Shown in pieces: positions 715 through 24,242 of a stretch of 64,000 nucleotides of DNA (positions are counted from its first letter, which is position 1; each line of letters starts with the position of its first letter). The DNA comes from Flavobacteriales bacterium (lineage in GTDB: Bacteria > Bacteroidota > Bacteroidia > Flavobacteriales > Flavobacteriaceae). The stretch spans positions 1-64,000 of the forward strand of contig SGZB01000002.1 in assembly GCA_004321735.1 (NCBI GenBank), written 5' to 3'. Under the pieces are notes generated by a model that was not told the origin of the DNA, did not search any database, and saw only the letters and a program-made list of their open reading frames with translations. The position numbers were made by a program, and so were the translations under genes.

Positions 715-2589
715 TTATTTGATAAGATCAAAGCTTCTTTTTATGAAATTAGTTAAATCTTGACCTTTTAAAAGATTTTGAGATAATTTAGCTAGATCTA
801 GCGATTGATTAATCAATCTTTCTCTCTTGTTTTTTGTCTTTGTATTTAGAATATTCGTTATAAGATCGCTATTAGTATTAACAACAAGATTATAGATCTC
901 AGGCATATTTCCAAACATCCCACCAACTCCAGTAGCTTGCATGTCTTTCATTCTTCTCATAAACTCAGGAAGAGTTATCATAAATGGCGGAGTATTACTG
1001 TCAGAAGCTTCAAGTTGAATTGTAAATTTTTCTTTTGGAATAATCTCCTCTAGGTATGAATTTAATGTTTCCTTTTCCTTTTCGTTAAGTTTAGAAACAT
1101 TCTCCTCTTCCTTTTTAATAAGATTTTCAATTGTATCAGAATCTACTCTTGCAAAAGAAATTTTTTCTTTCGTTGTCTCTAGTTTTTGTAATAAGTGAGA
1201 AATTATAGGAGAGTCTAAAAGTAACACTTTATATCCTTTATCTTCTGCTATTCTTATAAATGAATCTTGTTCTTTAACATTTGTAGAATAAAGTATTACT
1301 GTCTTACCATCCTTATCAGTCTGATTATCTTTGATTTCTTCAATCAGTTCATCATAAGTAAAGTATTTACTATCCGTTGTTGGATAAAGTGAGAATTTTT
1401 CAGCTTTTTCAAAGAATTTTTCTTCGCTCAACATTCCATATTCAATTATAACTTTGATGTCATTCCACTTTTCCTCAAACATTTTTCTGTCCTTTTTGAA
1501 TAAAGAATTTAATTTATCACCAACTTTTCTAGTTATATAATTAGTAATTTTTTTGACTGCAGAATCAACTTGTAAGTAACTTCTTGAAACATTAAGTGGA
1601 ATATCAGGTGAATCGATAACACCTCTCAATAGTGTTAAAAACTCAGGAACAATTCCTTCAACATTATCTGTAACAAAAACTTGATTCTGATATAGTTGGA
1701 TTTTATCCTTTTGAATATTAATATCATTAGATAATTTTGGAAAGTAAAGAATACCAGTTAAATTGAATGGATAATCTACATTTAGATGAATATTGAAAAG
1801 AGGTTCTTCAAAATTCATCGGGTATAAATCTCTATAGAATTGCTTGTAATCCTCGTCCTTTAATTCAGAAGGTTGTTTTGACCAAGCTGGTTCAGTAATA
1901 TTTATAATATCATCGACTTGTTCCTTTATTTCTTTTTTATCATCACCCTCACCTTCATTTCTAGTTATTTCTTTAGTTCCAAACTTTATAGGAATTGGCA
2001 TGAACCTATTATATTTTTTAAGTAAATCTCTTATTTTAGATTCCTCCAAATAATCTTTAGAGTCTTTAGAAATATTTAAAATTATTTCAGTTCCAACTTC
2101 TTTTTTGTTATGTTTTTTAAGAGTAAATTCCGGTGAACCATCACAAGACCAATGAATCGCACTTTCATCTTTGTATGATTTAGAAATGATTTCAACTTTA
2201 TCAGCAACCATAAATGCAGAATAAAACCCTAAACCAAAATGGCCTATAATTCCACTGTCTTTAGCAGTATCTTTATACTTTTCTAAAAATTCTTCAGCTC
2301 CTGAAAAAGCTACTTCATTAATATATTTTTTAACTTCTTCCGCAGTCATTCCAATTCCTTGGTCAATAATATGTAGTTTTTTTCCTTTTTTATCGACCTT
2401 AACTTCAATCAATGGGTTTTCTACATTAACTTTTGATTCGCCAATGTTAGATAGGTGTTTTAATTTTAGTGTTGCATCAGTTGCATTTGAAATTAACTCT
2501 CTTAAAAAAATTTCTTGATCGCTATATAAAAACTTTTTAATTAGCGGGAATATGTTTTCAACTGAAACATTGATTTTACCTTTACTCAT
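715..2589 (-). CDS. htpG: Hsp90-family chaperone HtpG
   Basis: ATP-dependent cytosolic chaperone, 624 residues, close to the usual bacterial length. The GHKL ATPase signatures are all visible: ELISNATDA at 31-39 (catalytic Glu31, Asn35), DQGIGMT at 76-82, and the glycine-rich lid motif GHFGLGFYS at 116-124. Middle and C-terminal dimerisation domains follow. The ATG start fits the family N-terminus. A possible 45-codon ORF lies directly upstream. The upstream region carries a 23-bp element shared with the hsp20 promoter, which suggests common stress control. Confidence 0.98.
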   Translation of the reverse strand: MSKGKINVSVENIFPLIKKFLYSDQEIFLRELISNATDATLKLKHLSNIGESKVNVENPLIEVKVDKKGKKLHIIDQGIGMTAEEVKKYINEVAFSGAEEFLEKYKDTAKDSGIIGHFGLGFYSAFMVADKVEIISKSYKDESAIHWSCDGSPEFTLKKHNKKEVGTEIILNISKDSKDYLEESKIRDLLKKYNRFMPIPIKFGTKEITRNEGEGDDKKEIKEQVDDIINITEPAWSKQPSELKDEDYKQFYRDLYPMNFEEPLFNIHLNVDYPFNLTGILYFPKLSNDINIQKDKIQLYQNQVFVTDNVEGIVPEFLTLLRGVIDSPDIPLNVSRSYLQVDSAVKKITNYITRKVGDKLNSLFKKDRKMFEEKWNDIKVIIEYGMLSEEKFFEKAEKFSLYPTTDSKYFTYDELIEEIKDNQTDKDGKTVILYSTNVKEQDSFIRIAEDKGYKVLLLDSPIISHLLQKLETTKEKISFARVDSDTIENLIKKEEENVSKLNEKEKETLNSYLEEIIPKEKFTIQLEASDSNTPPFMITLPEFMRRMKDMQATGVGGMFGNMPEIYNLVVNTNSDLITNILNTKTKNKRERLINQSLDLAKLSQNLLKGQDLTNFIKRSFDLIK

Positions 2590-2595
2590 AGTTTT

Positions 2596-2733
2596 TTATA
2601 TTGTTCTAAATCTTCTGTATTGATTAAACTTCATTCTTTTGGAGTTTCCCATAAATTTAGTTGAACTAACTCTATTATTAAATTCATTTCTAATTGAATT
2701 TAATTGTGAATTTCCATTATCTTGTTTATTCAT
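2596..2733 (-). CDS. Possible small basic protein (45 aa)
   Basis: ATG-to-TAA ORF of 46 codons, beginning MNKQDNGNSQLNSIRNEF and ending QYRRFRTI. The stop is six bases before the htpG ATG. It is rich in Asn, Arg and Lys and has no hydrophobic segment, so it is neither secreted nor membrane-bound. AAGGA abuts the ATG, too close for a normal Shine-Dalgarno sequence. It is the only ORF in the htpG leader, and the shared stress element lies about 45 bases upstream. I do not recognise it. It could be a real small protein, a leader ORF, or chance. Confidence 0.35.
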   Translation of the reverse strand: MNKQDNGNSQLNSIRNEFNNRVSSTKFMGNSKRMKFNQYRRFRTI

Positions 2734-2777
2734 TCCTTAATAATTATCTTGTTAAATGTTCAAATGATATACCAAAT

Positions 2778-2800
2778 ATTTTTTGATGACAAAATGACAT
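2778..2800 (-). promoter_or_regulatory. Shared chaperone-promoter element upstream of htpG
   Basis: Read on the reverse strand, 23 bases match the element upstream of hsp20 (23732-23754) at 20 positions. The core is TTGTCATC followed by an A-rich tract. Two direct TGTCAT copies (2786-2791 and 2795-2800 on the forward strand as ATGACA) lie 8 bases apart. About 45 bases separate the element from the small ORF start. It overlaps the probable fabH promoter on the other strand. Its function as a stress operator or promoter element is inferred. Confidence 0.5.
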
Positions 2801-2815
2801 TTATTTTTTATCAAT

Positions 2816-3826
2816 ATGTATAATTCAAAAATTTCAGGTCTAGGATATTATGTTCCCAACAACATTGTAACAAATGATGACCTCTCAAAAATTATGGACA
2901 CCTCCGATGATTGGATTAAGGAAAGAACAGGGATCCATCAAAGACGTTGGATTGAAAAGAATAGTGGAGATACTACTTCTATCATGGGAGTTAAAGCAGC
3001 TGAAATGGCAATTAAAAATGCTGGTATAACAAAAGACGATATTGACTTTATCGTGTTTGCGACTCTAAGTCCTGATTATTTTTTTCCAGGTGGGGGTGTG
3101 ATGATTCAAGATATGATGAATATGGGTACCATAGGGGCATTAGATGTCAGAAATCAATGTTCTGGATTTATTTATGCATTATCAACTGCTGATCAATTTA
3201 TAAAAACTGGAATGTACAAAAATATTTTAGTTATTGGATCAGAAACACATAGTCATGGATTAGATAAAACAACGAGAGGTAGAGGAGTTTCTGTAATTTT
3301 TGGAGATGGTGCTGGTGCAGTAGTGCTTTCAAGAGAGGAAAATAATTCAAAAGGAATTCTTTCAACTCATCTGCATTCAGAGGGTAAACATGCAAAAGAG
3401 CTTTCATTAATTTCACCGGGTTTAGGAACTAGATGGGTTACAGATATTGTTGAAGATAATGACCCAAATGATGAAAGCTATTACCCTTATATGAATGGTC
3501 AATTTGTTTTTAAAAATGCAGTTGTAAGATTTTATGAAGTTATTAATGAGGCCTTAAATAAAAATAATTTAACTAAAAAGAATATAAAATTGCTTGTTCC
3601 TCACCAGGCAAACCTAAGAATTTCTCAATTCATTCAAAGAAAATTTCAACTTAGTGATAATCAGGTTTATAATAATATCATGAAATATGGAAATACCACA
3701 GCAGCCTCTATACCGATTGCTTTAGCTGAAGCTCATCAGGATGGTCATATAAAGAAGAATGATATTATTTTATTAGCAGCCTTCGGAAGTGGATTCACTT
3801 GGGGAAGTGCTTTAATTAGATGGTGA
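2816..3826 (+). CDS. 3-oxoacyl-ACP synthase III family protein (FabH-like)
   Basis: A 336-residue thiolase-fold condensing enzyme. The FabH catalytic triad is in place: Cys115 (NQCSGF), His263 (VPHQANLRI) and Asn293 (YGNTTAAS). The family starts a fatty-acid chain by condensing an acyl-CoA with malonyl-ACP. This copy is not next to plsX or rpmF, where the main fabH often lies, so it may be a paralogue with another primer substrate. The 3' end overlaps the convergent symporter gene by 15 bases. A TTG-N16-TATTTTTT promoter-like pair ends just before the ATG. Confidence 0.9.
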
Positions 3827-23731: not shown

Positions 23732-23754
23732 ATGACATATTGTCATCTAAAAAT
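23732..23754 (+). promoter_or_regulatory. Shared chaperone-promoter element upstream of hsp20
   Basis: Agrees with the htpG element (2778-2800, reverse strand) at 20 of 23 positions. Its first half forms a perfect inverted repeat, ATGACA-TAT-TGTCAT (23732-23746). A partial second copy, ATGACATAATGGC, starts at 23764, exactly 32 bases on, about three helical turns. The hsp20 ATG is about 86 bases downstream. The likely role is an operator or alternative-sigma recognition site for stress genes. Confidence 0.5.
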
Positions 23755-23840
23755 TACTTTTTTATGACATAATGGCTTAAAAATTAATTTGGTTCATTTT
23801 TAGATTATTGTTAATCGTATAACAAAAAAATTTAAAAATT

Positions 23841-24242
23841 ATGAATTTAATTACACACAATTTAAGACCTATTTTATTTGATGATTTTATTAATGATTTT
23901 TTCGGAAACATAAATCAAAACAATACTCCTTTATACAATATTTTTGAAAATGATAAAGAGTATAAAATTGAATTTTCTGTTCCCGGTTTTGATAAAAAAC
24001 AATTCTCAGTTGAAATAGAAAATGATATTTTAAGGGTCTCTAATACTTCAGAAGATGAAGTTTCTGATAAATATTATAAGAGACAATTTAATTACTCAAA
24101 TTTTTCTAAAACATTTAATCTTCCTGAGATAGTTAATCTTGACAAGATTAGTTCAGAATATAAAAACGGGATTTTAAGAGTTATTTTACCTAAGGTGAAA
24201 GAAATTAAAAATGATAAAATCAAGAGTATTGAAATTAAATAA
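23841..24242 (+). CDS. Small heat-shock protein (Hsp20/alpha-crystallin)
   Basis: ATP-independent holdase, 133 residues. The alpha-crystallin domain spans about 35-125, with EYKIEFSVPGFDKKQF, the beta-strand segment VEIENDILRVS and the signature KNGILRVILPK near the end. A C-terminal IxI-like tail (KSIEIK) follows. It is preceded by the element shared with htpG and followed 8 bases after the stop by a strong hairpin terminator. It is monocistronic. Confidence 0.95.
   Translation: MNLITHNLRPILFDDFINDFFGNINQNNTPLYNIFENDKEYKIEFSVPGFDKKQFSVEIENDILRVSNTSEDEVSDKYYKRQFNYSNFSKTFNLPEIVNLDKISSEYKNGILRVILPKVKEIKNDKIKSIEIK

Follow-up and report, generated by a model that had tools for sequence, protein, structure and literature searches.

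Sigma54 promoters require a bEBP, which usually binds an enhancer located 80-150 bp upstream of the promoter and depends on DNA looping. In Flavobacterium psychrophilum, sigma54 control of groESL, lon, dnaK, grpE-dnaJ, htpG and clpB (the SM4 set) was described in 2021; groESL, lon, dnaK, grpE-dnaJ and htpG are co-expressed as a single cluster and have mapped start sites of the sigma54 type, no enhancer is described in the main text, and the activator was left open among three PF00158 proteins (PMC9723704). A 2025 survey of predicted sigma54 regulons reported GroEL/ES, DnaK/J, GrpE, IbpA and Lon/Clp as enriched in Flavobacteriia and Bacteroidia; it used promoter scoring only, contains no enhancer motif, and states that EBP specificity is not available for every organism (PMC12316311). 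In sensor-less bEBPs of the PspF kind, a partner protein keeps the activator in check (PMC7057263). The system described here shares its promoter class and its genes with the F. psychrophilum SM4 set (PMC9723704), whereas its host is uncultured and represented by a 1.15-Mb draft genome, and hsp20 is added to the regulon. HrcA/CIRCE and RpoH control act on the same target genes, whereas the promoter here is of the sigma54 class.

The window, that is, the whole analysed stretch of 64 kb, contains two 23-mers, ATGTCATTTTGTCATCAAAAAAT at 2800-2778 (-) and ATGACATATTGTCATCTAAAAAT at 23732-23754 (+), which agree at 20 of 23 positions, as a previous sequence-only reading had stated; 0.017 matches of at least 20/23 to the 23-mer are expected by chance in a 64-kb first-order Markov sequence. 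Two exact copies of TGNCANNNTGNCA are present in the window, one upstream of htpG and one upstream of hsp20 (see the table), compared with 0.68 copies expected from shuffling, and at least two copies were obtained in 12 of 100 shuffles. Because this count is weak by itself, the case is carried by placement and conservation. Of the 23-bp element that had been proposed, the 13-bp palindrome core is conserved, whereas the A-rich tail falls outside the conserved element; the hsp20 copy that had been singled out is a true palindrome but the distal one of two, and the proximal one corresponds in position to the htpG site. The second shared block that had been noticed is real and represents a sigma54 -24/-12 promoter, a class that the earlier reading had missed, and both of its proposals, an operator and a sigma-factor site, apply, with the operator adjoining the sigma54 promoter.

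Table. Elements and genes of the proposed sigma54-dependent heat-shock regulon in the window.
Feature	Position	Strand	Remarks
htpG putative enhancer palindrome TGTCATTTTGTCA, 8/8	2787..2799	-	centre ~-45 from predicted start
htpG sigma54 -24/-12 promoter TGGTATATCATTTG	2761..2774	-	12 bp from palindrome; predicted start 2748
45-codon ORF between sigma54 promoter and htpG	2596..2733	-	conserved in G003 and G012
htpG (Hsp90), putatively regulated gene	715..2589	-	
hsp20 distal putative enhancer palindrome TGACATATTGTCA, 8/8	23733..23745	+	44 bp from -24, centre ~-77
hsp20 proximal putative enhancer palindrome TGACATAATGGCT, 7/8	23765..23777	+	12 bp from -24
hsp20 sigma54 -24/-12 promoter TGGTTCATTTTTAG	23790..23803	+	predicted start 23816
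hsp20, putatively regulated gene	23841..24242	+	

The 45-codon ORF has no Pfam match; most members of the genus lack it and have the promoter immediately before htpG. On the other side, only ~16 bp separate the htpG palindrome from the start codon of a divergent fabH-like gene (window positions 2787-2816), and a protein bound to the palindrome might influence this gene too.

The palindrome core spans 13 bp and reads TGNCA-N3-TGNCA. Among 136 sites, the frequencies of the fixed letters are 0.93 (T), 0.96 (G), 0.99 (C) and 0.97 (A) in the first arm, and 0.96 (T), 0.96 (G), 0.99 (C) and 0.90 (A) in the second arm; since these sites were pre-selected at 7/8 letters, the informative part is the mirrored base preferences at the free positions, which were found at positions 3/11 and 0/14. 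The GT-N7-AC spacing that forms the operator core of E. coli NorR occurs inside TGTCANNNTGACA; NorR senses nitric oxide through a GAF domain, and its operators lie further upstream. Downstream of each palindrome is a GG-N10-G(A/C) sequence (TGGTATATCATTTGA for htpG, TGGTTCATTTTTAGA for hsp20, TGGCATGGTTGATGA for groES and TGGCATAATCATTGA for dnaK), with the GG and G(C/A) dinucleotides 10 bp apart as in the sigma54 consensus TGGCAY...TTGM; forms nearer to the textbook are found at groES in other genomes (TGGCATACTTTATGC in G028 and TGGCACATTTTTTGC in G004). The -24/-12 profile, TGGCAT-N6-TTGA, is in part a product of the scoring selection. The rpoN gene is present in the host genome (G000:C21:13406-13879, E=7.6e-50) and was found in 26 of 30 genomes, including 9/9 near-complete ones. 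Conversely, the CIRCE element (TTAGCACTC-N9-GAGTGCTAA) was found neither in the window nor at the groES locus, even when 3 mismatches were allowed, in line with the earlier remark that no CIRCE-type element is apparent. A sigma54 promoter combined with an operator at the chaperone genes is very well supported.

We compared groES, hsp20, htpG, dnaK, clpB and grpE, each together with the sequence preceding it, in the host genome, 18 genomes of the same genus and 11 other families of the order. At 128 chaperone promoters, we identified 91 exact palindromes, compared with 0.06 expected in shuffled sequence. The heat-shock regulon without CIRCE that the sequence-only reading had envisaged, with sites before further chaperone genes and conservation at htpG and hsp20, is supported: in relatives, the palindrome/promoter pair precedes groES, dnaK, grpE, clpB/clpC, lon and sometimes secA, with strong enrichment at the first five of these loci, and the htpG and hsp20 sites are conserved in close relatives. 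In all readable genus regions of dnaK (18/18) and grpE (13/13), a gap of 11 or 12 bp separates the -24 box from a perfect palindrome, and in 13/13 such regions of htpG a gap of 12-13 bp separates it from a palindrome with at most 1 mismatch. hsp20 is preceded by a pair of palindromes, at distances of 12 and 43-44 bp from its -24 box, and at groES the best palindrome is 42-44 bp from the -24 box in most genomes, with a degraded copy at 12 bp in some; the groES promoter and palindrome were located separately, as the automatic choice of the best composite overlooked the true promoter.

A genome-wide search with the composite pattern identified lon, clpC, secA and a gene for a Bax-inhibitor-like membrane protein as further members (the names lon, secA and Bax-inhibitor-like were read from the sequences, and the clp identity comes from the gene search), while the reversed pattern, used as a control, gave almost no matches in the genus. 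In the host genome, the mismatch-free composite pattern occurs at htpG and dnaK only. For 836 sigma54-like strings from named loci totalling 1.0 Mb, an exact palindrome was present upstream in 50 cases within the groES region and in 10 cases outside it, and these 10 showed no phasing. As a genome-wide probe, the 15-mer of the earlier reading alone was rejected: it gave 35 matches with up to 2 mismatches in the host genome, mostly by chance, so that specificity comes only from the composite with the -24/-12 promoter. Several composite matches with 1 mismatch were also dropped, being located inside coding frames. The secA genes of two other families (L408, L412) carry the composite element with one mismatch, which suggests that protein export is part of the regulon in these families. 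No element was seen at the clpC gene of the host, and no palindrome was found upstream of the promoter of its lon gene (L417, G000:C34). This lon gene has a sigma54-like promoter, TGGCATGGAACTTGA, and a perfect palindrome downstream of that promoter, 8 bp before the start codon.

The distances from the palindrome to the -24 box are 11-13, 23, 32-33, 42-44 and 63-65 bp, with a best period of ~10.5 bp (resultant R=0.93), that is, the palindromes lie on one face of the helix. The phasing holds up when the other families are taken by themselves (p~4e-7) and when each gene/gap pair of the genus is counted only once (p~7e-6), both p-values being approximate, with entries treated as independent. In 74 further groES loci from named organisms, the main spacings were 12, 22, 32-35, 42-44, 52-53, 62-64 and 76 bp. 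Behind the gene that precedes groES, several Flavobacteriaceae (L055, L041, L333 and others) have a hairpin with T runs after it, and the arms of this hairpin are the groES palindrome itself, as if a terminator and an enhancer shared the same sequence. Because the distal groES palindrome resembles a terminator, groES alone is no proof of phasing; no comparable hairpin was found at dnaK, grpE, hsp20 or htpG. Instead of the classical 80-150 bp, the gap is 11-13 bp at htpG, dnaK and grpE (centre ~-45) and 42-44 bp at groES and at the distal hsp20 site. An enhancer at ~-45 that is displaced by whole helical turns suggests direct or short-range contact with the polymerase.

Two bEBPs, EBP1 and EBP2, were found in the draft genome of the host (78% complete), in the gaps of which a further one could be located; the same two were found in relatives of 82-85% completeness. 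The EBP1 gene (G000:C45) precedes groES by ~2.7 kb, and the genes there run miaB-EBP1-lptE-like-small gene-secG-groES-groEL (names other than EBP1 and groES were read from sequence). It consists of a PF00158 AAA+ domain, a lid and a C-terminal Fis-type HTH (PF02954, HTH_8, E=9.4e-13), with no N-terminal sensor domain, the AAA+ match beginning at residue 14; the loop is GAFTGA in the host and GAFTGA or GSFTGA across relatives. The EBP1 linker and HTH were matched in 49/49 sampled Bacteroidia genomes with E of 4e-25 or better, none of these genomes being without EBP1, whereas matches in other classes of the phylum are weaker and often comprise the HTH only. The closest named EBP1, from Flavobacteriaceae bacterium UWMA-0351, is 74% identical. 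Linkage to groES recurs widely: groES is within the fetched stretch in 11 of 20 loci from the wider class, most of which have a recognisable -24/-12 promoter and several a perfect palindrome, and was missing within ~6.5 kb downstream of EBP1 in the other 9, so that the linkage is common but not universal.

The linker of EBP1 is variable except for a conserved helix motif, EREILYKILFDMKKDLNDLKK, at residues ~280-305 (L150), which is found from Flavobacteriaceae to Bacteroidales. An AlphaFold model of an EBP1 orthologue is poor (mean pLDDT 52.8), with only the lid and the HTH usable; it supports a predicted helix in the conserved linker (279-309) as well as the HTH helices. The Fis HTH is near the general consensus, and the sequence specificity of EBP1 is therefore a prediction only. 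Nevertheless, as the only bEBP found with a DNA-binding domain, EBP1 is the only candidate found that would be able to read DNA, and elimination, linkage and conservation point to it as the probable palindrome binder. PspF and HrpS likewise combine AAA+ and HTH domains with no N-terminal sensor domain, and control in trans is expected for such proteins (PMC7057263) and, by the same token, for EBP1. Compared with these proteins, EBP1 is associated with other genes, has a linker of ~110 residues that contains a conserved helix, and would act from enhancers as near as -45.

Our computations establish the promoter elements, the palindrome, its phasing and the set of genes involved, and also that rpoN and EBP1 are present and conserved. 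As judged from these sequence features, the palindrome very probably serves as the enhancer (UAS) of a sigma54-dependent heat-shock regulon, with EBP1 as its putative activator. In this scheme, the closed sigma54-RNA polymerase would be parked at GG-N10-GA, and an EBP1 dimer would bind TGNCA-N3-TGNCA via its C-terminal Fis-type HTH, on the DNA face shared with the polymerase; an EBP1 hexamer would then form near the polymerase, and ATP together with the GAFTGA loop would drive the transition to the open complex. The promoters opened by EBP1 would be those of htpG, hsp20, groESL, dnaK, grpE-dnaJ, lon and clpB/clpC. With regard to the signal, we can only speculate, by analogy, that the conserved linker helix and chaperone titration are involved. 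More tentatively still, EBP1 might be the master heat-shock activator of the class Bacteroidia, held off by free chaperones via the linker helix and freed by unfolded proteins, an extension that we regard as possible but doubtful; if true, EBP1 and sigma54 would match the role of the sigma32-DnaK circuit in E. coli.

The centre of the palindrome at -45, which is unusual for an enhancer, and the repressor-like location of the host lon palindrome downstream of its sigma54 promoter could instead indicate that another DNA-binding protein, such as a repressor or a coactivator beside the sigma54-RNA polymerase, occupies the palindrome while EBP1 acts elsewhere. We consider this unlikely: a bEBP is needed at sigma54 promoters, EBP1 alone among those found carries a DNA-binding domain, and palindromes also occur at ~-56, -66, -77 and -97, in phase, as fits an activator rather than a single fixed repressor site. 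EBP2 (L163:1255-2418 (-), L318) consists of a receiver and an NtrC-like AAA+ domain, with no HTH, is kept across the order and, in the genus, adjoins grpE-dnaJ. Given this location, and given that some bEBPs function without a DNA-binding domain (PMC3844500), EBP2 could be conceived as the true sigma54 activator, working from solution, with the palindrome serving an accessory factor; however, the essential GAFTGA loop is altered in EBP2 of the genus and of most families (GSFTSA, GAFTSA or GAFTTA), whereas EBP1 retains GAFTGA or GSFTGA, and we find this alternative quite improbable. EBP2 could be a partner of EBP1. There is very little to recommend a role of the palindrome as RNA, in a terminator hairpin or a leader thermosensor: the hairpin arms and T runs at groES of several Flavobacteriaceae would fit, but at htpG, dnaK, grpE and hsp20 the palindrome is upstream of the predicted start and has neither a partner arm nor a T run. 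Chance resemblance between two AT-rich upstream regions, which the frequency of two exact palindromes per shuffled window might have suggested, is refuted by conservation over the genus and a dozen families, with far more palindromes than expected, and its probability is negligible.

For F. psychrophilum, control of these chaperones by sigma54 had been described before, and what the present analysis adds is the putative enhancer, its phasing and the activator candidate; we found no report in the main texts of the open-access literature of the enhancer, the phasing, the groES-linked activator or its Bacteroidia-wide presence. A sigma54 enhancer that can lie tight against its promoter and moves only by whole turns represents a natural data set for the EBP-polymerase contact, and the system is kept in a host whose genome is small (1.15-Mb draft, 78% complete) and yielded no more than two such activators. 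Taken together, these findings may offer a named gene and a site for chaperone control in Bacteroidia, including relatives of Flavobacterium, Bacteroides and Capnocytophaga, and make this control directly testable.
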